Below, one piece after another: positions 2,646 to 61,293 of a DNA stretch of 64,000 bases. A model generated the notes under the pieces. It was not told where the DNA came from, did not search any database, and saw only the letters and a list, made by a program, of their open reading frames with translations. The stretch's first letter is position 1; every line of letters begins with the position of its first letter. This DNA comes from Siphonodentalium dalli (taxonomy: Eukaryota > Mollusca > Scaphopoda > Gadilida > Siphonodentaliidae). The position numbers and the translations under genes are program-made. The stretch is taken from the NCBI GenBank assembly GCA_032622095.1, contig CP136068.1, positions 154,963,151-155,027,150 of the forward strand. The letters run 5' to 3'.

Positions 2646-4026
2646 ATAGCGTTGACAGTGTGGGTCGGCAAACCCTAATTTTATGGCAGTAGAGGGTGAC
2701 TTCTGTTCCTCAATGTCATCGAAATAATTTGAGATAATCGTATTCATAGATATGCAAATAAGCTATTTTCTTATACAGTTTACCTATAACACATTCCCAA
2801 ACATACAAAACTGTCACTCTGTCCGGAAATAGTAAATTTTCTGTAATTTTTTTTATTTTGCATCTTGACTCACTTTGGTGAGGTCCAGACCTTATTTACT
2901 AAACTCGTCTTGTAAATTCAATTAGGAACTGGTGACGTGTTGAAGATTCTATTTAACGTCGGAAGCAAGCGATCAATCATTCCCCTTGCATTCTAGAAGA
3001 TGTGTAGTATTTCCTTTTAAGACGATTTCCAATAGTTTTGGTGATCCACATATTGCCAAGGGAAATTATGAGGTTGTCATTTTGAGATTGAGCTGTAACA
3101 TCATCGTTTGTCATAATAGGAAAAACTTCTTTTTCTAGGAGATCGCTGGCTTCAGGGTTTAACCTCTGAGACATACCAAGGCTACAAACTCGCAGTTCGT
3201 TTGCTGTCGCATGAGAATCGTTTGCTGTCGCATGTGAATTGTCTGTCTGTCCCAGAATAACTGCTGGACAACACTTCTGGTGCCTATACATAGTTCTGTC
3301 CAATTTGAGCCAAGCGAAACAACCAGGACAAGGACCGTAATTGGAGAAATCAAATGTTTCATGTTGTCGCCTGGAAACAATGACTTCACCTCTTCCCTTT
3401 GACAGAACTTCAATATTATTGACATGGTCACCCTTGTTCCTCAAAATGTCCCACATCGGTCTAACCTGTTTGTGTCGAGATCCCTTTTCCTTTGAAATTT
3501 TCAGGATATTCTGAACATCAGGCTGACATTTGTGATCCCTCTTGTTTTGCATGTTTAGCAAAGTTTGTTATTATTTTTTTGCAGAATTTACATGCATGAA
3601 CTTGGTTCCAAACAAACGACTTTTTTCTTAACACCGTGGGATGTTGTATGTGATTTTATCAGTTTGCGTGTGAATACCTTTGGACCTTTAACACTGGACA
3701 TTTTTCTTCTTTTTTCAATCTGGTCATCAGAAGTCCCACTGCTACTTGAAACATATATCATCCTCTTCGCACCCTTTGGAGATCCTTCATCCACTGATGC
3801 CACGTCATCAACGTCCGTATCCATGACCTCCTCCTCTTGTTCATCTCCAGAATCCTCAGATTCTTCACCCACTGGTGGCCTCTCATCATGGTCATCAGAA
3901 TTCCAACTGCTGCTTGAAACGTATCTGATCCTCTTCTCACCCTTTGAAGATACTTCATCCACTGGAGACACGTCATCAACCTTGTCCCTATCCTCTTGCT
4001 GTTCATCTGCATCCTTGCATTCTACT
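2646..4026 (-). pseudogene. Rearranged broken copy of the YR/zinc-finger gene
   Basis: Three non-collinear blocks match the gene at 17164-22811. Bases 2675-2722 match about 20590-20640, 2723-2980 match intronic 19954-20207, and 2981-4023 match 20773-21970. The last block encodes the acidic VSSSSWNSDDHDERPPVGEE repeats and both zinc-finger-like motifs. A 2-base deletion near 3555 (TTGCATGTTTAG against TTGCATATGTTTAG in the intact gene) and a 1-base loss near 3630 break the frame. Open frames on the plus strand are shadows. The order of blocks differs from the parent and intron sequence is present, so this is a DNA-level rearranged copy, not a processed pseudogene. Confidence 0.75.
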
Positions 4027-4051
4027 ATAACAAGCTTTATAAAACATTAAA

Positions 4052-5320
4052 GCTGGATTATCTCTTTGTAAACATGTATTATATAGTTACCGGGGTATCA
4101 AATATTAGATCTGAGTCGAAGACTTCTGTCTGGAAATTAATGCTTCTATCGATTAATATTGATTTTATTTAGAATATTTCTGGTCTGAAAAGATGTTGTT
4201 GTTCAGCTCACAGGTATTAGGCACAAACTTTTTTCTTTTTTTTAAATTTAATCAAAATCTCGGAAAGGTAAGTATCAAGGCTGATAGTGAAAATAGGAGG
4301 TCAAAACATCATCCTCACAAAAGCAAAATTTTGAAAATCATTCGAAGTTGTCAATGAAATTTATTTTTTGGTACCCAAAACATCCGTCCAATGAAAAATC
4401 AAAAAATCAAATAATCTATCCCCTAAATCTATACTATTATCATCAAACTAAATAGCCCTATTGTCAAACAGACGTTGTTTCATGAAGTACAGCTAATTTG
4501 GGGGTGGTACTCAACATACATCGTGTTTAATAACGATTTATGTTCTTTCTTTTGGTCAGTTTTACAGATTTCAATTCCCGGGAAGCCATTTTGCAAAACT
4601 GAAAGCGAAACTAACTTGAACTTTATTAAATTAATTTTAATATCTCTCTTTTAATTGATATCCGGCATTCTTAATGACAAAAATCATGCGGTGGATATAT
4701 AATACCCACTAGATAAGGAATTTGATAAAACATTATTTTTTATTGATGTAAAATTATTTTATTTTGGAGTCATTTACGGCAGCGTTTCTCGAGTTTGTTT
4801 CGCACTTTCAAAATGGCCTCCCGAGAATAGAATCATGTTAAACTGACGGGTATAAAAGACAAAAATCGTTATTAAACTTGATGCATGTTGAGGACCACAC
4901 CCAAATTAGCTGTCCTTCGTGAAACAACGTCTGTTTGACAATAGGGCTATTTAGTTTGATGATTAGAGTATAGATTTCGGTAATTTAGTTGTTGGATTGT
5001 TTGATTTTTTTGATTTTTCATTGGACGGACGTTTTGGGTACCAACCAAATAAATTTGATTTATAAACTTTAAATGTTTTTCTATGTTCACTCATCTCAAA
5101 TACGACGGCGAACCAAACTTTTTTGAAAACTACGAATATTTGGTCACATAGTGCTGCAATTACAGATCAATAAAAAATAAAATGTTGCTTTTGTAGAGAA
5201 AAATGCTGACCTCAATCAAAAATGAGATAGATACCTTTCCGAGATTTTGATTAAATTAAAAAAAAAATTGTGCCTAATACCTGTGATTCAGCTAATGAAC
5301 AATAGTAGTTACTGTTAACA
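4052..5320 (+). repeat. Dispersed repeat A, split by a foldback insertion
   Basis: The left part (4052-4207) and right part (5287-5320) match, in inverse orientation, sequence around 24195-24970 (GCTTCTATCGATTAATATT; AACAATAGT.GTTACTGTT). In the 24-kb copy the two parts are contiguous at this point, so the 4208-5286 block is an insertion into this repeat. The left end motif AAAGAGATAATCCA (as read on the other strand) also occurs near 5567 and 17140. Confidence 0.65.
4208..5286. mobile_element. 1.08-kb foldback element with 6-bp target duplication
   Basis: Termini TCACAGGTATTAGGCACAA and its complement are followed inward by long inverted arms. For example ACAGACGTTGTTTCATGAAG at about 4470 pairs with its diverged complement at about 4920. 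The whole unit folds on itself. TTCAGC flanks both sides (4202-4207 and 5287-5292). The paralogous repeat at 24.23 kb has the uninterrupted site. No transposase frame is present, so it is non-autonomous. Confidence 0.75.
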
Positions 5321-5458
5321 GAGACCATAAATGTTATTGCGTAATTTTGTCACAAATAAATGTTAAATAAACGTTAATTATACCCATTATCGCCTATAAC
5401 TATGGAATAAAATAATACAACCAATCAATCTAGGACATTTGACATTCGGTACATAGCC

Positions 5459-5945
5459 ATAGGAACAGCCTAATGCCCTCTATCGCTATGTAGTATCACC
5501 CGAATGGTCTTCAGTTCATATTGATTATTTTATACCCATGCAACTATTTAAAATTTGTTATTTAAATAGATAATCCATCTTTAACTTTAATATTATATTA
5601 CGAACCATTCAAAGTGATATCTTCGAGTTTCTTTCCTGCATACTTTCCAACGAGATTGAATTCCTGCAGAAGCATCATTTTTGATATGTCTACCCTTTCT
5701 ATCAACCCTGATGTCATGTGGTAATGTATCTTTTTAATGTCCATTGAATGGCTCACGTGGTTGGTAATCCATGACTGTTGTTGATGACTCCGGAGAGGCT
5801 GTCACCAACGCTGCTGCGGCGAGATCTTCAAAATGTGCTATAGGTATATACCTTGCCACAAACTTGTATCAATTCCTGTGATTCCGGCAATTTCTTCTCC
5901 AACTATTCAAGGACGTCCTCATTGATAAATCCAGATTAGATACAC
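5459..5945 (-). pseudogene. Shuffled YR-gene fragments (last exon, core piece, exon 2)
   Basis: Bases 5459-5790 match 17034-17355, which is the last exon plus downstream DNA. This is joined to a 47-bp piece of the big exon (CTGCTGCGGCGAGATCTTC, parent about 20660). That in turn is joined to the second exon with its splice donor and intron bases (TATAGGTATATACCTTGCC, parent 19592-19705). The order is not that of the parent gene and no continuous frame runs through, so it is a mosaic pseudogene. Confidence 0.75.
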
Positions 5946-5949
5946 CTGT

Positions 5950-6570
5950 TTGTCGCTCCACTTCTGTCTGACATTTGTGATGCGTTAACAGTGTGGGTCG
6001 GCAAATCCTAATTTTATGGCAGTACAGGGTGACTTCAAGTCCTCAATGTCATCGAAATCCGGAGAGACTGTCACAAACGCTGCTGTGGCGAGAACTTCAA
6101 AATGTTCGGGTACTAAAAAATTACCTAATTGCTTCAATCTCTCCAGCACGTCTCTTGTTGTAGAGGAGCAGTCTCGTTTCAGCCAATTCACACACCCTTT
6201 TGTAAGACGTCGAAGACATATCCCCGAGATCCAAATCCAATTCTTTCAACTGGTCTTTGATGTATCTTTGTAGGTTTACAAGATCATTAGGGTCTGGGAG
6301 TAGTTGTTCTTTGTTGAATTTCCGCAACTGTAGAGTGGTTGTTGCGAATTTTGTAACCCTCATGAACCACTGCAATTCTATCAATTTGAAGAAATCCTTG
6401 CAATTTGTCTTGTCTGCAGAATTCTTGTCTTTCATGGCAGGGCCTGACCCCATTTGGATGCTGCCATATATTTTCTCAAATTCACTGATGTGATCTTCTC
6501 TGGATGCTTCAGTTTGATTTCACAGCAAATTCTTTTTAAACTGTCATAGGCTCTGATAACTCCATCTCGC
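5950..6570 (-). pseudogene. Shuffled YR-gene fragments (core domain fused to exon 4)
   Basis: A short piece encoding RQKWSA is followed by a copy of parent 20590-20705. Then come parent 20233-20570 (the region with the YNKRRAGE box, including its splice donor GTAATT) and parent 17539-17638 (the LRKYMATITQ exon). The junction at about 6465 falls in GCCATA, which both parental sites share (20572-20577 and 17534-17539). One 110-residue frame survives locally. The arrangement cannot encode the parental protein. Confidence 0.75.
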
Positions 6571-6572
6571 TT

Positions 6573-6835
6573 TCAAACTTTCTTTTTACCCAGGAGTTGT
6601 GGATGTCTCGAGATTTTCTTATTTATTTCGTTCCACAGTTTTTTCTTTATTGTCTCCCAGTTGGGTCGTTTATAAATGTGTCCATGCTGTTTTTCACTTA
6701 TCTTCATCGCTTTCAAACATTCTTTTTGTCCAGGAGTTGTGGATGTCTCGAGATTTTCTTTAAAGATAATTCTAATTGCAGCCATCTCTTTGGCACTCCA
6801 CTTCTGTCTGACATTTGTGATGGGTCGGCAAACTC
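6573..6835 (-). pseudogene. Myb-like C-terminal domain fragment, partly duplicated
   Basis: Read on the minus strand, 6835-6597 gives WSAKEMAAIRIIFKENLE, then TPGQKECLKAM, then RPNWETIKKKLWNEINK. The W-[ST]-x-E...GKxEC...RxWxxIKxxVxN pattern is one I associate with the C-terminus of this animal YR/zinc-finger family. A second partial copy of the LETSTTPGQK part abuts it (6573-6610). This domain is absent from the spliceable gene at 17164-22811. Confidence 0.6.
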
Positions 6836-7380
6836 TAATTTTATGGCAGTAGAGGGTGACTTCAGGTCCTCAATGTCATCGAAATCCGGAGAGGTTATCA
6901 CAAACGCTGCTGCGGCGAGATCTTCAAAATGGGCTATAGGTATATACCTTGCCGATGTCCTCTTGCCGTTGTTCATCTGCATCCTTATTACGAACCATTC
7001 AAAGTGAAATCTTCGAGTTTCTTTCCTGCATACTTTCCAACGAGATTGAATTCCTGCAGAAGCATCATTTTTGATATGTCTACCCTTTCTATCAACACTC
7101 ATGTCATGCGGTAATGTATCTTGTGAATGTCCATTGAATGGCTCACATGGTTGGTAATCCATGACTGTTGTTGATGACTCCGGAGAGGCTGTCACCAACG
7201 CTGCTGCGGCGAGATCTTCAAAATGTGCTATAGGTATATACCTTGCCACAAACTTGTATCAATTCCTGTGATTTTCCGGCAATTTCTTCTCCAAACTATT
7301 CAAGGACGTCCTCATTGATAAACCAGATTAGATACACCTGTTTGTCGCTCCATTTATGTCTGACATTTGTGATGCGTTAA
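6836..7380 (-). pseudogene. Shuffled YR-gene fragments with repeated junction
   Basis: The blocks in order are: core piece (parent 20590-20690), exon-2 donor piece, a scrap of acidic repeat, the last exon (6990-7165, ending in the same stop), the core piece again, and exon 2 (7225-7345). A 178-residue frame crosses several of these joins, but they connect coding and intronic bases from different places. I treat it as a fortuitous fusion frame. Confidence 0.7.
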
Positions 7381-7383
7381 CAG

Positions 7384-8035
7384 TGTGTCCATGCTGTTTT
7401 TCACTTATCTTCATCGCTTTCAAACATTGTTTTTGTCCAGGAGTTGTGGATGTCTCGAGATTTTCTTTCAAGAGAATTCTAATTGCAGCCATCTCTTTGG
7501 CACTCCACTTCTGTCTGACATTTGTGATGGGTCGGCAAACTCTAATTTTATGGCAGTAGAGGGCGACTTTAGGTCCTCATTGTCATCGAAATCCGGAGAG
7601 GTTGTCACAAACGCTGCTGCGGGGAGATCTTCAAAATGGGCTATAGGTATATACCTTGCCGATGTCCTCTTGCATTTGTTCATCTGCATCCTTGCATTCT
7701 TCACCAGTTGGTGGCCTCTCCTCATCAACCTCGTTGACGTCCTCTTGTCGTTTTTCATCTGCATCCTTGCATTCTTCACCAGTTGGTGACCTCACATCAC
7801 GGTCATTATAATTCTCACCTAATGCCCAATTGACATCCTCCTCCAGTGCCTGACAGCTAATTAATTTCTCTTTCTTTGTCAAAATCCCTTTTCCTTTGAA
7901 ATTTTCAAGATATTCTGAATATCAGCCGACATTTGCATCCTTGCATTCTTCACCAGTTGGTGGCCTCTACTCATCAACCTTGTCCATGTCCTCTTGCCAT
8001 TGTTCATCTGCATCCTTGCATTCTTCACCTGTTAG
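7384..8035 (-). pseudogene. Shuffled YR-gene fragments ending in acidic repeats
   Basis: Bases 7384-7520 are another Myb-like fragment. Next comes the core piece with the exon-2 donor (7530-7670), then two and a half units of the acidic RPPTGEECKDADE repeat (7675-7800). It continues into a block matching the start of the big exon (SCQALEEDVNWALGENYN, about 7805-7860). Immediately beyond, ILKISKEKG-coding bases from the zinc-finger region are fused in (7880-7935), followed by one more acidic unit. Confidence 0.7.
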
Positions 8036-8278
8036 TGTAATTGTATCCTTATTAAATCTCTGACTGATAGGCCATAACACGCAACAAACAACTGGAATGG
8101 ACCAGAGTATGAGATTATAAGCTATTGTATGTAATGCACTCTGGTTTGTGGATCAGCACTATTCCAAACTTCCAAGATGTTTATTAGAGTCTGTGATTAA
8201 TTAGAAAATGAACCTTTTATTTCATAAATTATTGTTGTGATTTAATATTATCAATTCATGTGTAGTCCAGTGGAACTA

Positions 8279-8360
8279 CTTCCAATAAAGCTTGATCTGG
8301 TCGGTGGTCACCCTGATTTACATCAAATTTCACCGATGTAGTTTCCACATCTTCTGCCAT
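8279..8360 (-). CDS. Candidate first coding exon, copy 1 (acidic N-terminus)
   Basis: On the minus strand an ATG at 8360-8358 opens MAEDVETTSVKFDVNQG and continues HRPDQALLE. A GT follows at about 8279 (GAA|GTAGTT). Diverged copies lie at 9295-9335 and 15090-15175, so it is a conserved unit repeated with the YR fragments. I infer a first exon of a family member. In this location no downstream exon can be connected with confidence, so it may be an orphan fragment. Confidence 0.35.
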
Positions 8361-8640
8361 GAGTGAATAACTCATACTGTTTCCTCTATATGAGCTGTAA
8401 CATCATCATTTGTCATAATTGGAAAAACTTTTTATCAAAATCGAGTGAAGCAACTGTGAATAGAAACTAAAAACGAAACAGATTATAGAACTAAAAACAC
8501 CCAAATCAGAGCGTGAATGCTCGATTGGGGCCAGAACCATTTAGAAACTGACCATTGTGCAAACACATAAAACAGAATATCAAAATAGCAAACATAAAAA
8601 CTACATGAAAACGTTTTTTTTTTGGTTTACAAAAAGAAAA
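8361..8640. other. Mostly unrecognised, with one YR-gene scrap
   Basis: Bases 8391-8432 match the zinc-finger exon region (parent about 20873-20912; AGCTGTAACATCATCATTTG). The rest shows nothing I recognise. Confidence 0.45.
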
Positions 8641-9182
8641 ATATCGACAACTAGCCCAGCAGCCGCCGTGGACTACCCTTCAAATTCTGGTCGGGTCAAA
8701 GACTGGTACATAGCTGAAGAGGTGACCCGTTTAGCCACTGCATATAGCAGCCTCCCAGTACCTCCCCACAGTGAGACAAGCGTGAACAATACATGATTCA
8801 AAACTCAACAATCATCAGAATGAACACAACAGAGACAAGAGAGGACAGAAACATCATACATGAAAACACAGGCGACAATACTTCAAACATCAGACAAAAA
8901 TTGAATCTGAAACGCTGTGGAGAGGCGTGACTAGCCGATTGATTGAGCCGGGTCAACTCAACCACCCGTCTTGAAGAGATGTAGGACCGAAGAGGACCAT
9001 GAGCTAAGTTGTATCCGCAGGTCGATGCCTCACGTGATACAACCGCCCTAGTACCTCCAGGACTCCTACACCACACCTCACGGGATGCACCCCACGGCAA
9101 ACAGGGTGCCACATTAGGGGATTTTTACCCCTCGCAGTGGGGCGGTAGGCACATTCTACCCCGGGCCTACACGGTGTTGCTG
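8640..9182. repeat. GC-richer block, probable transposon fragment, unidentified
   Basis: This is clearly more GC-rich than its surroundings. It contains short palindromic stretches such as GGGGATTTTTACCCC (9117-9131). Frames of 79 to 104 residues exist on both strands, but I recognise no domain. The sharp composition change and the position between YR fragments suggest inserted repetitive DNA. Confidence 0.35.
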
Positions 9183-9335
9183 TCGCATGTGAATTGTCTG
9201 TCTGTCCCAGAATAATTGCTGGACAACACTTCTGGTGCCTATACAAAGACCGTAATTGGAGAAATCAAATGTTTCATGTTGTCGCCTGGAAATTTCACCG
9301 ATGTAGTTTCCACATTTCTGCCATGAGAAACGAAC
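9183..9335 (-). pseudogene. Zinc-finger scrap fused to first-exon scrap
   Basis: Bases 9183-9290 match the parental zinc-finger coding region (TGTCTGTCTGTCCCAGAATA, parent about 21027) with an internal deletion. They run directly into a broken copy of the MAEDVETTSV exon (9294-9333). This is another junction of originally distant coding pieces. Confidence 0.65.
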
Positions 9336-9339
9336 TATT

Positions 9340-9865
9340 TTGTGTGTATGGCCTTACATGTACTTGCTCAACATCTGTCAGTTGTCATTATACATATGTT
9401 TTCTTTACTTTAATCACCCTCCCATAAACATCTAATCAATATCAGGCAACTGCTAACCAATTACCTTGGGATGAAAATAACCGCTAATAAAATATTTTCA
9501 AGCAATACACACCCTGCTGAATACAGTTAAGCCAAGAATCTTGCTCAACATCTGTCTGTCAGTTGTCATTTAAACATGTTTTCTTTACATAAATCACCCT
9601 CCACATAAACTGAGAATCAATATCAAGCAACTGCTAACCAATTTAAAGTTTTCTTTACTTTAATCACCCTCCCATAAACTACTAATCAATATCAGGCAAC
9701 TGCTAACCAATTACCTTGGTCGGAAAATAACCGCTAATAAAATATTTTCAAGCAATACACACCCTTCAAATTAAACTGAGCATCTTGATCAACATAGGTC
9801 AGTTGTCATATACACATGTGTTTCCTTTACTTAAATCACCCTCCATAAAAACTGGGAATCAGTAT
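9340..9865. repeat. Tandem direct repeats with TCACCCTCC and GCAACTGCTAACCAATT
   Basis: Phrases such as TTAATCACCCTCCCATAAAC and ATCAGGCAACTGCTAACCAA recur at about 9410-9460, 9590-9640, 9660-9710 and 9830. The copies vary in length and divergence. There is no coding signal. Confidence 0.6.
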
Positions 9866-10060
9866 TAAGCAACTTTTTTCTTTATTGTCTCCCAGTTGGG
9901 TCATTTATAAATGTGTCCATGTTGTTTTGAACTTATTTTCATCGCTTTCAAACATTCCTTTTACCCAGGAGTTATGGATGTCTCAATATTTCCTTTAACC
10001 CTTTACTCAAGATTTTCTTTAAAGAGAATTCTAATTTCAGGCATCTTTTTGACATTCCAC
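9866..10060 (-). pseudogene. Myb-like fragment with remnant of a MITE end
   Basis: This matches the 6640-6800 fragment. At 10006-10022 the sequence CCTTTAACCCTTTACTC is the left tip of the piggyBac-type MITE found at 10293, but the rest of the element is missing. The gene fragment then restarts (AAGATTTTCTTTAAAGAGAA). Confidence 0.6.
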
Positions 10061-10144
10061 TTCAAATAGAAAATAGAAATAATAATATGAGCAATTTGAT
10101 TATGCAACATTATTTCAGCCATTTGTTAACATTAATTTAATCTT

Positions 10145-10290
10145 CTTTTTTTTTATTTCGTTCCACACTTTTTTCTTTATTGTCTCCCAGTTGGGTGTTT
10201 ATAAATGTGTCCATGCTGTTTTTCACTTATTTTCATCGCTTTCAAACATTCCTTTTACCCAGGAGTTATGGATGTCTCAATATTTCCTTT
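10145..10290 (-). pseudogene. Myb-like fragment interrupted by piggyBac-type MITE
   Basis: Another copy of the same coding fragment (TTTATTGTCTCCCAGTTGGG). It stops at 10292 and resumes at 10630 after the MITE (AAAGAGAATTCTAATTTCAG). The tandem reiteration of this fragment (9.87, 10.15 and 11.16 kb) suggests local duplication before the MITEs landed. Confidence 0.6.
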
Positions 10291-10292
10291 AA

Positions 10293-10629
10293 CCCTTTAC
10301 CCAACAAACCGGCCAAATAAAGCTGCAACAGCCTAAATTATCTTGGCTCTGTCTCAATAGAACCATACAAATATGGATATCATTGGAACCGGTTCATTGA
10401 CCACATTGTGATGGTTACAGTTATGCCCTGTGCCAATGCATTCTCTTATATATGCGAGTCGACCATAGGTCGCCTCGCATATATAAGAGAATGCATTGGC
10501 CTAAAAAAATTCTTTTAACACTTTTTACCATTTTTTCTTACATTCTTTAACAATTTTATTATTTGTAAATGGTCGACTCGCATATATAAGAGAATGCATT
10601 GGCACAGGTCCGTTCTGTTGGGTAAAGGG
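10293..10629. mobile_element. piggyBac-type MITE, TTAA duplication
   Basis: A 337-bp element with inverted ends CCCTTTACCCAACA and TGTTGGGTAAAGGG, flanked by TTAA on both sides (10289-10292, 10630-10633). Uninterrupted copies of the host fragment (for example 11290-11310, TTTTCTTTAAAGAGAATTC) confirm the TTAA target. A CCC..GGG terminus with TTAA is characteristic of piggyBac. Inside is a strong palindrome (10434-10500, AATGCATTCTCTTATATATG and complement), whose arm is repeated near the right end. There is no transposase. Confidence 0.85.
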
Positions 10630-10714
10630 TTAAAGAGAATTCTAATTTCAGCCATCTCTTTTGACATTCCACTTCAAATAGAAAATAGGAATAATAAAAT
10701 GAGCAATCTGATTA

Positions 10715-11154: not shown

Positions 11155-11345
11155 TTTTTATTTCGTTCCACACTTTTTTCTTTATTGTCTCCCAGTTGGG
11201 TCGTTTATAAATGTGTCCATGCTGTTTTTCACTTATCTTCATCGCTTTCAAACATTCTTTTTGTCCAGGAGTTGTGGATGTCTCGAGATTTTCTTTAAAG
11301 AGAATTCTAATTTCAGCCATCTCTTTGGCACTCCACTTCTGTCTG
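11155..11345 (-). pseudogene. Myb-like fragment, third tandem copy
   Basis: This best-preserved copy of the KLWNEINKK / WETIKKK-type fragment ends with the ...CAGACAGAAGTGGAGTGCC (WSA) start. No intact open frame of the domain persists across the whole copy with a start or splice site. Confidence 0.6.
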
Positions 11346-15729: not shown

Positions 15730-16424
15730 GAATCAAAGCATAGTTGTAGCCACAAAGATCGGTAGTAGTTTATTTGCAATGGAATACGAAGATCGGTAGT
15801 AGTTTATTTGCGATGAAATTATAATTACTGTTTTAGTTTGACCGTCGAATCAATCATACAAGGAAATTGCATTTCTGAGGTTCAATATGAGTACCGGTAT
15901 AGTGAAACCTCTGTACTCCGAATACCGGACAGCTTTATTAGTTCATAAGTGAACAAATACACTAATCTTTACCTCCAAAATCCGATCAGCATCACAATTA
16001 ATTACAAACGGACAAAGTGTTCTTGGTAAATTAATCAAATTTAATTACAAATTAAAACAAATATAATGCCTGATAATAAAATGATACGGCCATATTTATA
16101 TTTAATCTCATTCTAAATAAATTCTGAAAGAAATATCAGACGAACGAGCGTATACAGAGGTACTCTTAGTAAACTTAGAGTACATTTGCTCCCAGAGTCG
16201 CACACGGTATGTCTTATCGAAATGGCAGTCAAGGTCATTTGCTCGAGCTCGAAAAAGAACAGAGCGAGTGATGTCATTATCATGGCAAGCGACTCCCAAA
16301 ATAGACTAATTTATGCACAGTCCAAGACTGATTTTTTGTCGGTCAAATCAGGGTAAAGTTTATATGTATCATGCCTGTCACTATCACTACTAGTACTTGT
16401 TTTACTTAATATGCACTTACTAAC
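15730..16424. other. Mostly unrecognised sequence
   Basis: A direct repeat of AAGATCGGTAGTAGTTTATT occurs at about 15756 and 15790. A 63-residue minus-strand frame (16108-16299) has no recognised domain. Confidence 0.4.
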
Positions 16425-16490
16425 CAATGGTGCAATGTGGTGTGGAAGACTTTTCCCAAAGCCAGTGGGAAGAATACACAAAGCATCCGA
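16425..16490 (-). CDS. RecQ-like helicase motif I exon fragment
   Basis: The minus strand reads SDALCILPTGFGKSLPHHIA then PL before a GTTAGT splice donor at 16424. LPTGxGKS is the Walker A (motif I) sequence of RecQ-type DNA helicases, with the usual DAL(x)ILPTG lead-in. The 5' boundary is not clear and I could not find the following DEVH exon in the window. It is probably an isolated remnant of a RecQ-like, possibly transposon-associated, helicase. Confidence 0.4.
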
Positions 16491-16639
16491 TTTTTTAATA
16501 AATATGTAAAGCGGAAGAGATTCCTGTTTGGACTGCTCATGCGCGAAGTCATTATGTTATCGATTATCCACACCCATAGGCTAAAATTAGATGTTCCACG
16601 TGTTTATTTGTATACAAAAGCTGGGGTTTTTTAAAGACG

Positions 16640-17033: not shown

Positions 17034-17163
17034 ATAGGAACAGCCTAATGCACTCTATCGCTATGTAGTATCGCCCGAATGGTCTTCAGTTCATATTGAT
17101 TATTTTATACCCATGCAACTATTTAAAATTTGTTATTTAAAGAGATAATCCATCTTTAACTTA

Positions 17164-20100
17164 TTACGAACCATTCAAAGTGATATCTTCGAGTTTCTTT
17201 CCTGCATACTTTCCAACGAGATTGAATTCCTGCAGAAGCATCATTTTTGATATGTCTACCCTTTCTATCAATCCTGATGTCATGCGGTAATGTATCTTGT
17301 GAATATCCATTGAATGGCTCAGGTGGTTGGTAATCCATGACTGTTGTTGGTGACTCAGGTCAAATGCCTGAAAAATAATGGATAGGGCGATTGAGTATAT
17401 TATATTTACTCAATTATTTACAATAGATAAACAAATACTTGTTTTATAATCTGACAGCTATCCTAGTCAAAACAAACAATTAAATTGATCATGTATTAGA
17501 ATTAAAATTGTATTGCTCACCTGTGTGATTGTGGCCATATATTTTCTCAAATTCACTGATGTGATCTTCTCTGGATGCTTCAGTTTGATTTCACAGCAAA
17601 TTCTTTTTAAACTGTCATAGGCTCTGACAACTCCATCTCCTGAAATTTAGTGGAAGTGTTACTCAAACTGTACTAAACCATGACATATACATGTTAAGGA
17701 TATGCTAGCGCTTGTTTAAAAGGCGCCCTATTTCCATTCGATTTTTAATTTTCCATGTACCAATTCCATTAGTTCCATATTTTATAATTTTTTCACACTC
17801 AACATGCTTATATACAAGTTGTCATATTGATCATAATGTACAATGATGTAGTTAATGTCTGTGAGGTACAACTGATGTCAAAATTATGGGCAGTATGAAA
17901 GCAAGAAAAACAGTTCATCTCAAATTCAATGCAGATCTTTATCTTAATTGTAATACTTACTAGATGAGGCAAACAAGTATGTGTTTGAAGTTCTCCTTCC
18001 AGCATTCTGCCTGACACTGGCACTAGCCAGAAACTGTAGAACGTCCTTTGTGTCTGCCGGCACAATAACTGGAACACCACGATTATACTAAACATAAGGA
18101 TGAAAGAACATACTATAGCTACATCAATATGAATACAATGCGCTTATAATAACTGGCAATGAGCTTCACTTCACACCTAGTTATTGTAATGCTTGTCTTT
18201 TTATTAAAAAATTACTTTAATATAAATATGACAACATTGAGTAATAGAATGATCTATGTTACAATTCAAAGAGCCTCACATTCTCATTCATGTGAAGCAA
18301 CATACAACTTTCATTAAATCTTGCAGGGCTATTATTAAATAGTGTTAGCCAACAAGATTAATTAACATTCACATCATTTAGTGGGGGGGGGGGATTTGTC
18401 AACTATATTTTACATTGGGAAAATATCAGATCCATTACAGATGCGCTTGCTTCGATTCGATTTATCCAAAACCATAATCGAATAGTTTCGATTCGGACTG
18501 TACCGCACCGGACTGTTTGTTACAAATCTGTAACCATTAATCGTGAATCAAATGAAAATTCAAATATTTTGGGATGATCCTACACCTCCCCTTATCCCCT
18601 TCTTTTAAATGAGTCATGTGCTCGATAATAATAACTTAAAATGTAGTTCAAACAGAAACAAATACTGAGTAGTCAGTCACTTAGCTATAGTCTAGTCACT
18701 CACTATTCAATATTATTTTCATGTTGAACTATCAGTCTTATCACTATTCACTAAGCCATTCACCCTCTAACATTGAAACATGTACTGAATTGTACTCCTT
18801 GTCTCAAACTTTCAAATGGACCTCCAGTCTATTGTTTTGATCTAGTTGAGGAATGAGGATTTACATTTATCAATTGCAACAAATAAAAATCTGGACCTCA
18901 CTTTCATGGCTTTCTTTGAAAGTTGGCACTTGCACAATGTACAGTATGGTTTAATTTAATATTGGATCCCAGAAGTACATGTACATGTTATTCAGAGATA
19001 TTGGACCTGTCGACTCGCACATACTCAGTCCCAAGTATGGGCATATGGCCATTATGGGGTAAATTCCGGGTAATACGTGAACATTGAACAACATCTCTAA
19101 AAGTAAATGGTACCATTGGAAATGCTTTTGGTAATTGATTTATTAACAGTGTTTAGCAACTTTAGTGCTGTTTAGTATTTACATATTGGATACATACATA
19201 GCAGTATAGATGACAGAATCATGACACAATACATGAATGGTATTTAATGTTTTCAAATATACTTTCTGGGATACAGTGCCCCTGTCATGCCTCTAGCAGA
19301 CCTGTTTTTGCCGGTAACTTGCATCGCGATGCGCATCGCATCGTGGACAAATAATCGCGATGCGCATCGCATCGTGACCCCTCCGCATCGTGGCAGCCCT
19401 AATTACTAGTAGCTAATAAAATATGAATGTATAGAAAAATCATTACTGTATAACTTGTAAGTTGTAACTGCATGATTGGCATCACGTTATTCACTAAAAA
19501 TAATATACGAATACCAAACTACCAATAAAATGCATGAAAGTGCATGTTGCTTTTAACCCTTGCTAACATTTCAAATGTTTGACGATTACCGGTGCTATAG
19601 GTATATACCTTGCCGCGAACTTGTATCAGTTCCTGTGATTCCAGCAATTTCTTCTCCAAACTATTCAAGGACGTCCTCATTGATAAATCCAGATTAGATA
19701 CACCTGTTTGTCGTGCAATATAGTCTTTAACCCTGAAACAATGTATAAATTAATACACGACGCTAATAATAGTAAGAGCAAAGGAAAGTGTGAACAACAA
19801 TCGAAATATGACCGGCCATATCAAAACCAGTCTCGTGTCCGAAAAAAATAATATTTTAGTTATATCTGTTGCATTCGATAGATGTTGATACGAGCTTTAA
19901 ATAGAACGAAAACAGGGGTATACCTCGTTCCAACATGAACAATTTCCGGACATAATTTGAGATAATCGTATTCATAGATATGCAAATAAGCTATTTCTTA
20001 TACAGTTTACCTATAACACATTCCCAAACATACAAAACTGTCACTCTGTCCGGAAATAGTAAATTTTCTGTAATTTTTTTTATTTTGCATCTTGACTCAC

Positions 20101-22811
20101 TTTGGTGAGGTCCAGACCTTATTTACTAAACTTGTCTTGTAAATTCAATTAGGAACTGGTGTCGTGTTGAAAATTCTATTTAACGTCTGAAGCAAGCGAT
20201 CAAACATTCTTCTGCAAATATGATAGTTGTAATTACCTAATTGCTTCAATTTCTCCAGCACGTCTCTTGTTGTAGAGGAGCAGTCTCGTTTCAGCCAATT
20301 CACACACCCTTTTGTAAGACGTCGAAGACATATCCCCGAGATCCAAATCCAATTCTTTCAACTGGTCTTTGATGTAACTTTGTAGGTTTACAAGATCATT
20401 AGGGTCTGGGAGTGGTTGCTCTTTGTTGAATTTCCGCAACTGTAGAGTGGTTGTTGCAAATTTTGTAACCCTCATGGACCACTGCAATTCCATCAATTTG
20501 AAGAAATCCTTGCAATTTGTCTTGTCTGCAGAATTCTTGTCTTTCAGGGCCTGACCCCATTTGGATGCTGCCATACGTTTTATATCAAACCCTAATTTTA
20601 TGGCAGTAGAGGGTGACTTCAGGTCCTCAATGTCATCGAAATCCGGAGAGGCTGTCATCAACGCTGCTGCGGCGAGATCTTCAAAATGTTCGGGCACTAA
20701 AAAATCGTTCATTTTGTAGTTTGGTTTGTTTGTATGTTTTCGGGCATTTATCAGGAGCCGTGCTGCCCCTCGCATTCTGGAAGATGTGTAGTATTTCCTT
20801 TTAAGACGATTTCCGATAGTTTTGGTGATCCACATATTGCCAAGGGAAATTATGAGGTTGTCATTTTGAGATTGAGCTGTAACATCATCATTTGTCATAA
20901 TAGGAAAAACTTCTTTTTTTAGGAGATCGCTGGCTTCGGGATTTAACCTCTGAGACATACCAAGGCTACAAATTCGCAGTTCGTTTGCTGTCGCATGAGA
21001 ATCGTTTGCTGTCGCATGTGAATTGTCTGTCTGTCCCAGAATAACTGCTGGACAACACTTCTGGTGCCTATACATAGTTCTGTCCAATTTGAGCCAAGCG
21101 AAACAACCAGGACAAGGACCATAATCGGAGAAATCAAATGTTTCATGTTGTCGCCTGGAAACAATGACTTCACCTCTTCCCTTTGACAGAACTTCAATAT
21201 TATTGACATGGTCACCCTTGTTCCTCAAAATGTCCCACATCGCTCTAACCTGTTTGTGTCGAGATCCCTTTTCCTTTGAAATTTTCAGGATATTCTGAAC
21301 ATCAGGCTGACATTTGTGATCCCTCTTGTTTTGCATATGTTTAGCAAAGTTTGTTATTATTTTTTTGCAGAATTTACATGCATGAACTTGGTTCCAAACA
21401 AACGACCTTTTTTTCTTAACACCGTGGGATGTTGTATGAGAAGTTAAGAGTTTGCGCGTGAATACCTTTGGACCTTTAACACTGGACATTTTTCTTCTTT
21501 TTTCAATCTGGTCATCAGAAGTCCCACTGCTACTTGAAACATATCTCATCCTCTTCGCACCCTTTGGAGATCCTTCATCCACTGATGCCACATCATCAAC
21601 GTCCGTATCCATGACCTCCTCCTCTTGTTCATCTCCAGAATCCTCAGATTCTTCACCCACTGGTGGCCTCTCATCATGGTCATCAGAATTCCAACTGCTG
21701 CTTGAAACGTATCTGATCCTCTTCGCACCCTTTGAAGATACTTCATCCACCGGAGACACGTCATCAACGTCCATGTCCTCCTCTTCTTGTTCATCTCCAG
21801 AATCCTCAGATTCGTCAACCACTGGTGGCCTCTCATCATGGTCATCAGAATTCCAACTGCTGCTTGAAACGTATCTGATCCTCTTCTCACCCTTTGAAGG
21901 TACTTCATCCACTGGAGACACGTCATCAACCTTGTCCCTATCCTCTTGCTGTTCATCTGCATCCTTGCATTCTTCACCAGTTGGTGGCCTCTCCTCATCA
22001 ATATCGCTGATGTCCTCTTGCCGTTTTTCATCTGCATCCTTGCATTCTTCACCAGTTGGTGGCCTCTCCTCATCAATATTGCCGATGTCCTCTTGCCGTT
22101 TTTCATCTGCATCCTTGCATTCTTCACCAGTTGGTGGCCTCCCCTCATCAACTTCGATGTCCTCTTGCCGTTTTTCATCTACATCCTTGCATTCTTCACC
22201 AGTTGGTGGCCTCTCCTCATCAATATCGCTGATGTCCTCTTGCCGTTTTTCATCTGCATCCTTGCATTCTTCACCAGTTGGTGGCCTCCCCTCATCAACT
22301 TCGATGTCCTCTTGCCGTTTTTCATCTACATCCTTGCATTCTTCACCAGTTGGTGGCCCCCCCTCATCAACTTCGATGTCCTCTTGCCGTTTTTCATCTA
22401 CATCCTTGCATTCTTCACCAGTTGGTGGCCTCCCCTCATCAACTTCGATGTCCTCTTGCCGTTTTTCATCTACATCCTTGCATTCTTCACCAGTTGGTGA
22501 CCTCTCCTCATCAATATCGCTGATGTCCTCTTGCCGTTTTTCATCTGCATCCTTGCATTCTTCACCAGTTGGTGGCCTCCCCTCATCAACTTCGATGTCC
22601 TCTTGCCGTTGTTCATCTACATCTTTGCATTCTTCACCAGTTGGTGGCCTCTCCTCATCAACCTCGTTGACGTCCTCTTGCCGTTTTTCATCTGCATCCT
22701 TGCATTCTTCACCAGTTGGTGGTCTCTCATTATAATTATCACCTAATGCCCAGATGACATCCTCCTTCAGTGCCTGACAGCTACTGAATTTCTTTTTCTT
22801 TGTTAAGATAG
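17164..22811 (-). CDS. YR (tyrosine-recombinase-like) protein with acidic repeats and zinc fingers, 5 exons, 5' end not found
   Basis: I read the exons as 22811-20237, 19732-19609, 18087-17961, 17639-17521 and 17367-17164, with stop TAA at 17166-17164. All have AG/GT borders and matching phases, giving about 1,045 residues. The first listed exon starts at a TTTTCAG acceptor, so at least one upstream exon is missing. Order of parts: 11 acidic RPPTGEECKD repeats; three VSSSSWNSDDHDERPP repeats; CKFC...H...H and CPGC...H..CC zinc-finger-like motifs; a helical core (SPSTAIKLGFDIKRMA); then a YR domain. YR residues visible are the Arg box YNKRRAGEIEAI, the KYNRGVPV strand, LRKYMAT (Arg of HxxR, with the His not conserved), LSH, and Tyr in HKIHYRM. 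I recognise the layout as a multicopy animal YR family. A mobile-element origin is inference. A Myb-like C-terminal domain of the family is lacking. Confidence 0.75.
19323..19376. repeat. Tandem repeat of ATCGCGATGCGCATCGCATC
   Basis: Two copies, 30-31 bp apart, of a self-complementary GC-rich phrase lie in an otherwise AT-rich intron between exons 2 and 3 of the YR gene. It is probably the end of an inserted element; the other end was not identified. Confidence 0.45.
19954..20207. repeat. Intronic block duplicated at 2723-2980
   Basis: Nearly identical to 2723-2980 (GATAATCGTATTCATAGATA through ACTGGTG.CGTGTTGAA.ATT). In the parent it lies in the first intron after the big exon. In the copy it sits between blocks that are not its neighbours here. 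Its presence shows that the pseudogene mosaics were copied from genomic DNA, not mRNA. Confidence 0.7.
21962..22735 (-). repeat. Coding minisatellite of 72/75 bp (acidic repeats)
   Basis: Eleven tandem units encode RPPTGEECKD(A/V)DEKRQED followed by a variable acidic linker (IEVDE, ISDIDE, IGNIDE or VNEVDE). Every unit is a multiple of three, so unit number can change without frameshift. The mosaic copy at 7675-7800 has only two or three units. The long open frames on the opposite strand here are shadows. Confidence 0.85.
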
Positions 22812-22829
22812 CTGAAAACAAAGTTTGAA

Positions 22830-23256: not shown

Positions 23257-24134
23257 CACCCCATGCATCTGGACATGCTCGTAGCGGAAGATATTCTCGT
23301 AGCGGAATAACCACATGGCCCGCGATTTGCACACCGTTCAAGGTTAGACACATGTTGCACCGAAACCAACACATACCAGTGGTGGTACTATTTGTGGCTA
23401 TAATTTACCCAACTGCACATCAAACTTCTTTAAACATGGACGCAGTTTAATCCTATTTTACCGGGAAGTTAGTCCAAAAATTGGGGCAAAATTTGCATTT
23501 CTTACATAAAATTACGATTTATGTGGTAACAGCCCAGACAATATAGTCTTTGCATACATTGCTATTTCCGCGGATATTCCATTAATATAATAGACAACAT
23601 TTTCAGTAATGTTCTACATTTCCATAGTAAAAAATAACCATATATGCAGGTCATAGCAAGAAAATATGGTATGTCTATAGCAGTGGTTTTACGTTTGCTA
23701 TAGACATGCCCCAAAATCAAGTGAGCGACTCCATGGAAATTAATTTTTCGGGCACTAATATGATTGACATCGCAAACATGTCCAGTTCATTTTGAAGCTA
23801 AGATATCGTACTTTGAGAGACTGTATGTTATATAATGTGTCAATGCAAAGATTCATTAAAATTTGATAAAACTTATATCGAGTAAGTATTTCAGGTCATA
23901 ATTTTCGTATAAAACCAGATTATCAAACAGTAATATGCAAATTGCGGAAACCACAACCGCTCATTTCTGTAGACCGATTATCGCTGTTAACGTTTAAAAA
24001 AAATCAAGTTAAAATAAACTGTGTTTTTAAGAAATAACTTACGATAACTAAAGACGATGTGCAAATCGCGGGCCATGTGGTTATTCCGCTACGAGCATGT
24101 CTTCCGCTACGAGCATATCCGGATGCATGGGGTG
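23257..24134. mobile_element. 878-bp TIR element with 5-bp target duplication
   Basis: Inverted ends of about 78 bp begin CACCCCATGCATC. Each end contains two copies of GCTCGTAGCGGAA and then TAACCACATGGCCCGCGATT. AACAA flanks both sides (23252-23256, 24135-24139). The interior is AT-rich with no transposase frame, so it is non-autonomous. Superfamily not assigned. Confidence 0.75.
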
Positions 24135-24189: not shown

Positions 24190-24970
24190 ATATATACCGG
24201 TATAAACAGTAACCACTATTGTTTGTTAGCTAAACAACCCCACACCTTTTTAGACCAGAAAATATTTGAAATATATTTAATATTAATCGATAGAAGCATT
24301 TCCGGACAGGAGTCTTCAATTCAGATCTAATATTTTATACTCGTGTGTGCTAAATAATAGTACAGGGCGGAAAATGCGGACAAAATTAATAATAGTACAG
24401 GGCGGAATACTAGTACAGGGCGGAAAATGGGGACAAAATTAATAATAGTGTAAATTTCAAGTCATTTTATTGCACAACTGATACCTAGTCTAGCCGTGTG
24501 TAATATCACCATTGCAGAGTTGTGAACTAAAAGCAGAACGTTCCATTGCGTCATTGAGATAACTGGTTAGCGACTGATGCGAACCACGTGGTTCCCTTCA
24601 TAGTACATTCAACAATCATTACCGAGTCACCAGAGATATGTGGGCTAAACAAAAGTAGACTCGTACCCTGTTTTGTCGGAACATGATGGAAGCGTTTTTC
24701 CACGTGTCCAAATGTTTACAACCAGCCGACTGTCCCCCAACAATACACATTTGATGAAATAAAAAAACGATAAACTGATCTGTTTGCCGAGTTCTTCGTG
24801 GTCAGATCCATTGATTTTTAATAACCGTACAGGTGCGAATAAGGATCGTACAGGGCAGATTTTTTATTGAAAATTAATAATCGTACATGTACGATTATTT
24901 GGCACACAAGAGTACCCCGGTAACTATATACATGTAATACATGTTCACAAAGAGATAATCCACCTTTAAC
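24190..24970 (-). repeat. Dispersed repeat A, second copy, with a different nested insertion
   Basis: In inverse orientation it matches 4052-4207 plus 5287-5320, contiguous across the point where the 4.2-kb copy carries a foldback element. It is itself split at about 24337/24915 by another element. Both ends match (ACTAT.GTTTGTTAGCT; ACAAAGAGATAATCCA). Confidence 0.6.
24338..24914. mobile_element. 577-bp TIR element nested in repeat A
   Basis: Ends TACTCGTGTGTGCTAAATAA and complement of CCAAATAATCG...GGCACACAAGAGTA form imperfect inverted repeats of about 25 bp. The 4.1-kb paralogue lacks this block. A TA duplication is possible, which would suit a Tc1/mariner-like MITE. Inside, TAATAGTACAGGGCGGA occurs three times. 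Confidence 0.5.
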
Positions 24971-24984
24971 TTTGTCAAAATATT

Positions 24985-44170: not shown

Positions 44171-46085
44171 ACATATTTTATTTGTTGCAACGAACTACTC
44201 ATCAATGTGATGGACAATCTACCCAAGATTATTACGGACTGCGTACCCAACTAGTGTAAGAACATTTTTTCAATCTCCGAACATGAAATATATATGCAAC
44301 GAACTACTCATCAATGTGATGGACAATCTACCCAATATCATTACGGACTGCATACCCAACAAGTGTATGGACATCTTTTCAATCTCCGAACATGAAATAT
44401 AATTTATTTGTTGCAACAAACTACTCATCAATGTGATGGACAATCTACCCAATATCATTACGGACTGCATACCCAACAAGTGTATGGACATCTTTTCAAT
44501 CTCCGAACATGAAATATAATTTATTTGTTGCAACAAACTACTCATCAATGTGATGGACAATCTACCCAAGATTATTACGGACTGCATATCCAACTAGTGT
44601 AAGAACATTTTTTCAATCTCCGAACATGAAATATATATGCAACGAACTACTCATCAATGTGATGGACAATCTACCCAATATCATTACGGACTGCATACCC
44701 AACAAGTGTATGGACATCTTTTCAATCTCCGAACATGAAATATAATTTATTTGTTGCAACAAACTACTCATCAATGTGATGGACAATCTACCCAAGATTA
44801 TTACGGACTGCATATCCAACTAGTGTAAGAACATTTTTTCAATCTCCGAACATGAAATATAATTTATTTGTTGCAACAAACTACTCATCAATGTGATGGA
44901 CAATCTACCCAAGATTATTACGGACTGCATACCCAACTAGTGTATGGACATTTTTTCAATCTCCGAACATGAAATATATTTTATTTGTTGCAACGAACTA
45001 CTCATCAATGTGATGGACAATCTACCCAAGATTATTACGGACTGCGTACCCAACCAGTGTAAGAACATTTTTTCAATCTCCGAACATGAAATATAAATTA
45101 TTTGTTAAAATGAACTACTCATCAATGTGATGGACAATCTACCCAAGATTATTACGGAGTGCGTACCCAACTAGCTATATATAGTGTAAGAACATTTTTT
45201 CAATCTCCGAACATGAAATATAATTTATTTGTTGCAACAAACTACTCATCAATGTGATGGACAATCTACCCAAGATTATTACGGACTGCATACCCAACTA
45301 GTGTATGGACATTTTTTCAATCTCCGAACATGAAATATATTTTATTTGTTGCAACGAACTACTCATCAATGTGATGGACAATCTACCCAAGATTATTACG
45401 GACTGCATACCCAACTAGTGTATGGACATTTTTTCAATCTCCGAACATGAAATATAAATTATTTGTTAAAATGAACTACTCATTAATGTGATGGACAATC
45501 TACCCAAGATTATTACGGACTGCATACCCAACAAGTGTATATGGACATCTTTTCAATCTCCGAACATGAAATATATTTTATTTGTTGCAACGAACTACTC
45601 ATCAATGTGATGGACAATCTACCCAAGATTATTACGGACTGCGTACCCAACTAGTGTAAGAACATTTTTTCAATCTCCGAACATGAAATATAAATTATTT
45701 GTTAAAATGAACTACTCATCAATGTGATGGACAATCTACCCAAGATTATTACGGACTGCGTACCCAACTAGTGTATGGACATTTTTTCAATTTCCGAACA
45801 TGAAATATATTTTATTTGTTGCAACGAACTACTCATCAATGTGATGGACAATCTACCCAAGATTATTACGGACTGCGTACCCAACTAGTGTAAGAACATT
45901 TTTTCAATCTCCGAACATGAAATATAAATTATTTGTTAAAATGAACTACTCATCAATGTGATGGACAATCTACCCAAGATTATTACGGACTGCGTACCCA
46001 ACTAGTGTATGGACATTTTTTCAATCTCCGAACATGAAATATATTTTATTTGTTGCAACGAACTACTCATCAATGTGATGGACAA

Positions 46086-46600
46086 ATTTGATCATGTTAC
46101 CCCACTGTTGTATAAATTACATTGGCTTCCCATATTTGAACGAATTGTGTACAAACATGCTACTTTGTGTTATAGAAAGTCGGATATTGATAATGCTTTG
46201 CCACCATATATTGATACATTGTTGGTCAAATATGTACCTGCTCGACCACTTCGATCACAGGATGCGAATGCGATGGTTGTACCTAAACGAGATCTGATGT
46301 ACTTTGGTCGCCGTTCTTTCGAGGTCTACGGGCCGACCATTTGGAACAACCTTCCCAAAGAGGTGAAACAGTCTGACTGTTTGGAAACATTCAAATCGGC
46401 CCTAAAAACTCACCTATTCATCTCCCATTTCGGACAAATAACATCAGAAAACGTTGAGGAGACTTAATTATTGAAATACATGCATATTATTTATTGCGTA
46501 TATGTTATAGTGTGAATGTGTGTGACTGCGTTTGTGTGAATTGTTCAGCGCCATGAGCCATACGGGATATGGCGCTATACAAATACTCTATATTATTATT
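46086..46600 (+). mobile_element. 5'-truncated LINE (L2/CR1-like) tail in a satellite monomer
   Basis: The 515-bp insert encodes the end of a non-LTR retrotransposon ORF: HVTPLLYKLHWLPIFERIVY, PARPLRSQDA, GRRSFEVYGPTIWNNLP and FKSALKTHLFISHFG, with the stop at 46465-46467. After the stop comes a short 3' tail with GGCGCTATACAAATAC and a (TAT)n end, as in L2/CR1-type elements. The 8-bp duplication ATGGACAA flanks it (46078-46085, 46601-46608). The same monomer in the next block (51549-51665) is uninterrupted. The 152-residue frame is satellite plus LINE. Confidence 0.85.
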
Positions 46601-59892: not shown

Positions 59893-60731
59893 CTAGCCGA
59901 TGAGCCCGACGTTGTCCGGGCTTTTCAAAAACCAAATTTCAAGTCGATAGCTCCACCCGTTTCCGAGATCTGGTCTGCGCATGCGCAAAGCTTGCGTCGC
60001 ACGGGCTCGGCGACCCGATAAAAATCGTATCCGGGGCAAGATACATTCACATACCAAATTTCAAGAGTAAAAAAATTAGAGTCTGAAAAAAGTGTATAAG
60101 CTCCACCCGTTTCCGAGATCTCGTCCGCGCATGCGCGAAGCGGGCGCCGCACGGGCTCGCCAATACGACAAGGTCGACTGCCTGGTCAAACTACACGCAC
60201 GTGTCTGTCATTTATACAAATCTACGATTCTCGACCGATCGGGACGAAACTTGGTACGTGCGTGTAGTTTGACCAGGCGGTGGACGTTGTCGTATTGGCG
60301 GGCCCGTGCGGCGCCCGTGCAATTTGCTATGTGAATGTATCTTGCCCCGGATACGAATTTTATCGGATCGCCGAGCCCGTGCGACGCCAGCTTCGCGCAT
60401 GCGCAGACGAGATCTCGGAAACGGGTGGAGCTATCGACTTGAAATTTGGTATGTGAATGTATCTTGCCCCGGATACGAATTGTATCGGGTCGCCGAGCCC
60501 GTGCGACGCCAGCTTCGCGCATGCGCAGACCAGATCTCGGAAACGGGTGGAGCTATCGACTTGAAATTTGGTATGTGAATGTATCTTCCCCGAATACGAA
60601 TTTTATCGGGTCGCCGAGCCCGTGCGACGCCAGCTTCGCGCATACGCAGACCAGATCTCGGAAACGGGTAGAGCTATCGACTTGAAATTTTGTTTTTGAA
60701 TAGCCCGGACAACGTCGGGCTCATCGGCTAG
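59893..60731. mobile_element. Inverted dimer of Helitron-like elements (both outer ends 3')
   Basis: It starts with CTAGCCGATGAGCCCGACG, the reverse complement of a Helitron-like 3' end, and finishes with the same end in forward orientation (GTCGGGCTCATCGGCTAG at 60731). The halves meet near 60228, where CCTGGTCAAACTACACGCAC faces its complement. Each half carries repeats of about 121 bp (GTATGTGAATGTATCTTG, GAGATCTCGGAAACGGGT). No Rep/helicase is present. Confidence 0.7.
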
Positions 60732-61293
60732 TCTCCTATATATTTTGAAGACCTCTGTATGTCTGTCTGTATGTCTGTATGTATGCCATTTATACAAATC
60801 TACGATTCTCGACCGATCGGGACGAAACTTGGTACGTGTGTGTAGTTTGACCAGGTGGTCGTCGTTGTCGTATTGTCGAGCCCGTGCGTCGTCCACTTCG
60901 CGCATGCGCAGACGAGATCTCGTAAACGGGTGGAGCTATCGACTTGAAATTTGCTATGTGAATGTATCTTGTCCCGGATACGAATTTTATCGGGTCGCCG
61001 AGCCCGTGCGACGCCACCTTCGCGCATGCGCAGACGAGATCTCGGAAACTGGTGGAGCTATCGACTTGAAATTTGGTATGTGAATGTATCTTGCCCCGGA
61101 TACGAATTTTATCGGGTCGTCGAGCCCGTGCGACGCCAGCTTCGCGCATGCGCAGACCAGATCTCGGAAACGGGTAGAGCTATCGACTTGAAATTTGGTT
61201 TTTGAATAGCCCGGACAACGTCGGGCTGGGTAGAGCTATCGACTTGAAATTTGGTTTTTGAATAGCCCGGACAACGTCGGGCTCATCGGCTAG
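60732..61293 (+). mobile_element. Helitron-like non-autonomous element
   Basis: 5' TCTCCTATATATTTTGAAG starts directly after the previous CTAG. It has internal 122-bp tandem repeats. The 3' hairpin AGCCCGGACAACGTCGGGCT ends seven bases before CTAG (61290-61293). The hairpin region is duplicated (61206-61228 and 61262-61283). Confidence 0.75.

Follow-up and report, generated by a model that had tools for sequence, protein, structure and literature searches.

Is a spliceable gene that ends in a recombinase-like domain still part of a mobile element, or has it become a gene of its host? This question is raised by a stretch of DNA from the scaphopod mollusc Siphonodentalium dalli (GenBank assembly GCA_032622095.1, contig CP136068.1, positions 154,963,151 to 155,027,150 of the forward strand). 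We refer to this whole stretch of 64,000 nucleotides as the window. An earlier note on it had described five joinable exons at 17164-22811, coding for a protein with a tyrosine recombinase (YR)-like C-terminus, and had offered two explanations, a mobile master copy or a domesticated gene. Our analysis favours the domesticated gene, on account of codon constraint, the lack of bounding repeats among those listed, the lack of Pfam domains in the nearby minus-strand frames scanned, and the scrambled state of the other copies. We lean, with modest confidence, towards a resident spliced gene whose product would be a nuclear DNA-binding protein with a YR-derived domain at its core.

Five exons form one open reading frame

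When the minus-strand gene was rebuilt from the sequence, its five exons gave a continuous open frame of 1048 codons with two stop codons at the end (Table 1). All four introns have GT-AG borders and measure 504, 1521, 321 and 153 nt in 5' to 3' order, as the earlier claim of in-phase exons with canonical borders had it. Four introns fall within 5.7 kb, or five if the exon-like segment 6 described below is counted.

The N-terminal acidic repeat and the two zinc-finger-like motifs described earlier were also found. In exon 1, a 72-bp unit occurs in 10.5 copies encoding ERPPTGEECKDADEKRQED..., and two Cys/His motifs, CX2CX9HX6H and CX2CX12HX2C, can be read from the sequence, neither of which has a zinc-finger match in Pfam. 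That the acidic repeat is open counts for little alone, because further frames of the array are open too. In the non-repeat part of exon 1 (~420 codons), this minus-strand frame is the sole open one. Exon 1 starts at an acceptor (TTTTCAG, TTTGTTTTCAG) at 22812. The first Met in its frame occurs only far inside the acidic region, so that an upstream exon is needed.

The C-terminus resembles tyrosine recombinases

The spliced protein contains, in order, the YR motifs YNKRRAGE, RGK/YNRGVPV (the slash marks an exon border), LRKYMAT, LSH and HKIHYRM. Five of the six catalytic residues are kept, namely Arg-I, Lys, Arg-II, His-III and Tyr. This agrees with the motif list of the earlier note, and the His of HxxR, which it had called non-conserved, is indeed replaced by Val at the His-II position. 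For comparison, we used 46 YRs picked by their likeness to XerD. The spacing of 9 residues between His-III and Tyr is identical in all 46, and that between Lys and Arg-II (74) is close to the median of the set (73.5).

The joined C-terminus alone was then aligned by hhalign with a YR profile made of XerD and 45 relatives from viral contigs (47 of 80 loci entered, two of which were discarded for stops). It scored 25.2, a value reached by none of 200 shuffles (mean 14.5, maximum 22.9); the reversed C-terminus, used as a control, scored 16.7. In the register of this alignment, VRGKYNRG, which spans the junction of exons 2 and 3, lies on the catalytic-Lys hairpin of XerD (GKG.K). The ordered motif set was found in none of 200,000 shuffles, but the pattern was drawn after the protein was known and fits only 7 of the 46 true YRs.

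PF00589 (Phage_integrase) was matched neither at its curated cut-off nor up to E 10, and DUF3504 had no match up to E 10 either, in Pfam scans whose HMMER filters discard most matches above E ~0.1. Overall, searches of Pfam, PHROGs, NCBIfam and PDB sequences returned nothing or chance-level matches only, and no relatives were found in viral contigs, prokaryotic genome contigs and phage records. The profile check proposed earlier is therefore negative for Pfam Phage_integrase and positive for the YR profile, and the earlier claim of a YR-like C-terminus holds by own-profile match and by residue identity and spacing, without Pfam or fold support. We infer that the spliced C-terminus probably has a recombinase fold, and consider catalysis by it uncertain. 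Because His-II is Val and two spacings are out of range, we describe the domain as YR-derived and not as a competent recombinase.

A further putative relative is an unnamed multi-copy animal family with zinc fingers, a YR-like core and a C-terminal tryptophan-rich domain. An approximate consensus of this presumed family agrees with the window protein at 35% in the YR part; RGVPV, LRK..AT and the H..Y region are common to both. Adding this consensus raised the hhalign score to 39.7 and carried the alignment on through LRK..AT as far as LSH. As the consensus was taken from no database and may be biased towards YRs, we take both figures as a lead only.

Substitutions lean synonymous

In ten alignments of exon sequence from the gene with its fragments elsewhere in the window, 32 differences are synonymous and 50 nonsynonymous, with a stop among the latter. 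In a reduced count that omits four later tandem duplicates (E, F2, G2 and G3), 24 of 56 substitutions are synonymous, against a neutral expectation of 21-28% (p 0.0002-0.01 for a transition bias kappa of 1 to 4). The expectation was derived from non-repeat codons, and the counts use exon 5 of the five-exon model and treat substitutions as independent. The largest alignment (A) has 13 synonymous differences out of 25, and the smaller alignments are mixed. The differences thus lean synonymous, and a codon-level constraint on the gene is visible.

No bounding repeats among those listed around the gene

The earlier note had also proposed a search for flanking duplications that would mark an element. 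For 15-26 kb, the repeats listed (20 of 27 direct families and 25 of 40 inverted pairs) include no pair that flanks the gene in the manner of element termini, and none that forms the split direct or inverted terminal repeats of DIRS/Ngaro elements. As possible element ends, a 24-bp repeat at 17139-17162 and 24949-24972 was rejected, because it has four occurrences with at most three mismatches and is part of a dispersed short repeat. This repeat of ~165 bp ends near TTAAAGATGGATTATCTCTTT and was seen at 4047-4212, 17082-17162 and 24224-24972; one copy extends into the 3' end of exon 5 and another is interrupted by ~570 bp.

In the three minus-strand frames of the stretches at 22.8-31.0 and 9.0-17.1 kb, Pfam gave no match up to E 0.1, not even to a reverse transcriptase, and therefore no reverse transcriptase partner is evident on the minus strand. 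Likewise, the reverse transcriptase-RNase H in the same unit and strand that marks DIRS/Ngaro elements was not found in these minus-strand stretches. Upstream of exon 1, at 23257-24134, there is an inverted repeat with arms of 81 nt that are 94% complementary and 716 nt apart. It carries a repeated CTCGTAGCGGAA motif and is of the fold-back type.

A mosaic of gene fragments lies downstream

Painting 1-11.1 kb with the gene region revealed 31 fragments, 27 of them at 88% identity or more. All 27 share the orientation of the gene, their order is scrambled, and no whole-unit copy of the gene is present in 1-11.1 kb. This bears out the earlier description of an intact copy among broken relatives, in that the window's remaining copies are fragments in scrambled order, none of them a whole unit. 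Pieces of the possible terminal domain exon (Table 1) occur in the mosaic beside pieces of exons 1, 2, 4 and 5, and one exon-5 fragment extends 139 nt beyond 17172. Filler preceding the domain-exon pieces was considered as a missing exon and rejected; 14 of its 15 nt match exon 1, and we read it as an exon-1 piece. Among the 26 pairs of neighbouring fragments, 15 have overlaps of 1-12 nt, and the other 11 have gaps of 17-1446 nt. The mosaic also has an internal tandem duplication (5596-5995 with 6986-7387, and 6677-6986 with 7384-7693).

For a test of exon bias, the 27 fragments were collapsed by hand to 20 source intervals. With segment 6 and the domain exon counted as exons, 18 of the 20 are mostly exonic; the two others come from introns, one (261 nt) from intron 1 and one (26 nt) from the intron below exon 5. 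With this full exon set, 86% of the bases are exonic, compared to 27% by random placement in the gene span, and outside exon 1 the share is 63.5%, compared to 8.3% (0 of 20,000 permutations in both cases). This strong bias leans on the domain exon, some copies of which are local tandem copies at 9.9-10.7 kb. When the five-exon set and its span alone were used (15 intervals), 86% of the bases were exonic versus 53%, a value reached by 349 of 20,000 permutations (p ~0.02). For the four intervals outside exon 1 it was 50% versus 18% (251 of 20,000).

How did this mosaic arise? A plain processed pseudogene is disfavoured because no correct exon-exon splice junction was seen when the fragment list was inspected by eye. 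Random DNA breakage is disfavoured because the fragments are oriented one way and introns are scarce. A tentative and distinctly unlikely explanation is that the mosaic was built via RNA or cDNA. Sense transcripts of a single YR-derived gene would have served as templates, and repeated switching on them would have laid down about 20 mostly exonic pieces in the same orientation, with abutting ones joined at 1-12 nt of common sequence. The array would then be a by-product of transcripts, or a source of small RNA or donor cassettes acting on the intact copy. The exon bias without the domain exon, at only p ~0.02, makes this RNA-templated route less likely.

The gene probably extends beyond five exons

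The five-exon set described earlier is real but incomplete, given that exon 1 has no early Met and that segment 6 fits in phase. The gene is probably larger. A candidate first coding exon, whose phase matches exon 1, is weak, since 29 of 500 Markov shuffles yield an equally good candidate. Further downstream, segment 6 is the top exon-like segment in the 5.8 kb below exon 5. Its score was matched in 6 of 500 Markov shuffles and in none of 38 real segments of equal length, overlapping one another and taken from elsewhere in the window as controls. A donor of middling strength at 17171, within exon 5, can be spliced to it in phase, and together with the candidate first exon it brings the model to 1081 open codons.

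It is possible, judging from sequence, that the domain exon at 11342-11144 belongs to the transcript of this gene as well. A direct join from segment 6 was rejected because the phases mismatch, and no small linking exon with the required phase at both ends was found above thresholds. A 20-nt candidate (13802-13783) could link the two via a second acceptor at 11338 and is too short to judge. Single-sequence AlphaFold2 modelled the domain exon as three helices (pLDDT 62). None of the eight PDB fold matches obtained with this model was significant (best E 3.6); a telomere-repeat binding protein came first and a homeodomain third. A 'SANT-like' label for this domain would be putative, based on motif resemblance and not on a result.

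Table 1. Features of the gene and its surroundings in the window (positions in window coordinates; a slash within a sequence marks an exon border).
Feature	Position	Strand	Description
Candidate first coding exon	26957-26927	-	MPKKRCVWTS; donor CTG/GTAAGT; phase matches exon 1
Exon 1	22811-20237	-	Acidic repeat region, two zinc-finger-like motifs, presumed core-binding region, Arg-I (KRRAGE); donor GTAATT
Tandem repeats inside exon 1, in frame	21509-22726	-	72-bp units 21952-22726; 162-bp units 21509-21998
Exon 2	19732-19609	-	Ends ...VRGK (beta-strand Lys)
Exon 3	18087-17961	-	YNRGVPV...YLFASS
Exon 4	17639-17521	-	VNLRKYMAT (Arg-II); Val in place of His-II
Exon 5	17367-17161	-	LSH (His-III) and Tyr; two stops at 17166-17161
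Exon 5, alternative end	cut at 17172	-	Donor AATG/GTTCGT, joined to exon-like segment 6
Exon-like segment 6	14948-14877	-	V-GRDTEISMLENHDDEDFQPGFED-G; strong acceptor and strong donor
Possible terminal domain exon	11342-11144	-	QKWSAKEMAEIRILFKENLETSTTPGQKECLKAM...WNEIKKRR stop; behind TTTTTTTCAG acceptor; three predicted helices
Downstream mosaic of gene fragments	2669-10675		Direct orientation relative to the gene; scrambled order

Elsewhere in the window

A very large array of a 117-bp repeat with higher-order blocks occupies 29738-52557, and a GC-rich tandem repeat with a 122-bp unit in ~7 copies lies at 60321-61207. The 117-bp array and the GT-AG introns of the gene are in keeping with eukaryotic DNA, and the repeat types and the presumed protein family with an animal, probably a marine invertebrate. 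An open reading frame (ORF) at 46006-46467 inside the 117-bp array resembles the C-terminal tail of a reverse transcriptase, and a minus-strand ORF at 16311-16556 with DALCILPTGFGKSLPHHIAPL resembles a helicase Walker A region. Neither ORF has a Pfam match.

Comparison with known systems

Like XerD and phage-type tyrosine recombinases, the window protein has Arg-I, Lys, Arg-II, His-III and Tyr in this order, with 9 residues from His-III to Tyr, and the Lys hairpin and the LF.S stretch align. It differs from them in having Val for His-II, a longer segment between Arg-I and Lys, introns, and a zinc-finger-like and acidic N-terminus, and it has no Pfam-level match.

In animals, PMC3212892 lists WOC, ZMYM2/3/4, QRICH1, KIAA1958 and KCTD1 as Crypton-derived DUF3504 genes. 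They resemble the window gene in their YR-derived domain, which in several of them is fused to zinc fingers, and in the presence of introns. All seven human DUF3504 domains are reported there to have lost the Tyr and the second Arg, whereas the window gene keeps both and has no DUF3504 profile match. The same paper gives the YR tetrad of Cryptons as R-H-R-Y and reports no terminal repeats for the CryptonA elements of animals. The window gene is like CryptonA in coding for a YR-like protein and differs in that the tetrad His is lost. A zinc-binding module N-terminal to the YR is also described, in PMC3537659, for DIRS1/ALOG-type YR retroposons of marine animals. In contrast to these, no reverse transcriptase/RNase H or methylase domain was found in the minus-strand frames at 22.8-31.0 and 9.0-17.1 kb, and Pfam gave no ALOG match. 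At the level of titles and abstract openings, we recognised no description of this gene family in the literature, which is not a claim of its absence in print.

Resident gene or mobile element

Taken as a resident gene, the locus would code for a protein that runs from an acidic repeat arm through two zinc-finger-like motifs and a region in the core-binding position to the YR-like domain, an acidic linker and perhaps a three-helix C-terminal domain. The YR-like domain has R-K-(V)-R-H-Y where R-K-H-R-H/W-Y is usual. The fingers and the core-binding/YR clamp would bind a DNA site and may oligomerise there. By analogy with what has been proposed for Crypton-derived animal genes, the protein may act in the nucleus as a host regulator of chromatin or transcription. 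Since the nucleophile Tyr and the two Arg are retained, the protein may still be able to make a transient covalent nick.

Several observations weigh against this interpretation. His-II, replaced by Val here, is His in all 46 comparison YRs, and the spacings between Arg-I and Lys (49, beyond the 22-35 of the YR set) and between Arg-II and His-III (26 versus 23-24) are out of range. The single-sequence hhalign probability is only 7%, though the shuffle test is clear, and no YR match was found in the Pfam, PHROG or PDB sequence searches. The AlphaFold2 model of the exon-1 tail was uninformative (pLDDT 40.5), and two of the ten copy alignments contain no synonymous difference (0 of 1 and 0 of 5).

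The main rival, which we rate as rather unlikely, is that the locus holds the YR gene of a Crypton-like DNA transposon that is still live or was so until recently; its protein would excise and integrate a circular element, and this copy would be an intact one. The retained catalytic Tyr, both Arg, Lys and His-III would suit such an element, and its missing ends are not decisive, because animal Cryptons have been described without terminal repeats (PMC3212892). However, four introns in 5.7 kb (five with segment 6), the loss of His-II, the synonymous lean of the substitutions and copies that are scrambled pieces instead of whole units all argue against it. Could the YR likeness be convergent or accidental, with a different fold and coincidental motifs? 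The missing Pfam and PDB sequence matches and the low hhalign probability would fit, but the profile score beyond all 200 shuffles, the agreement in register, catalytic residues and His-Tyr spacing, and the ordered motif set (a post hoc pattern, as noted above) make this improbable. We give equally little credence to a pseudogene that is open by chance, its exons being relics no longer transcribed. It could account for an exon 1 without an early ATG, for an uncertain start exon, and for the phase mismatch between segment 6 and the domain exon. Against it stand the 1048 open codons over five exons with GT-AG borders and the synonymous excess.

Implications

If the resident-gene interpretation is correct, this YR-derived gene has lost His-II and, in contrast to the human DUF3504 genes, retains the Tyr nucleophile and both Arg. 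It would then be a natural test case for DNA cleavage by a domesticated recombinase. The mosaic beside it, rich in exon pieces, would be a concrete locus at which to study how exon fragments return into a germline genome.

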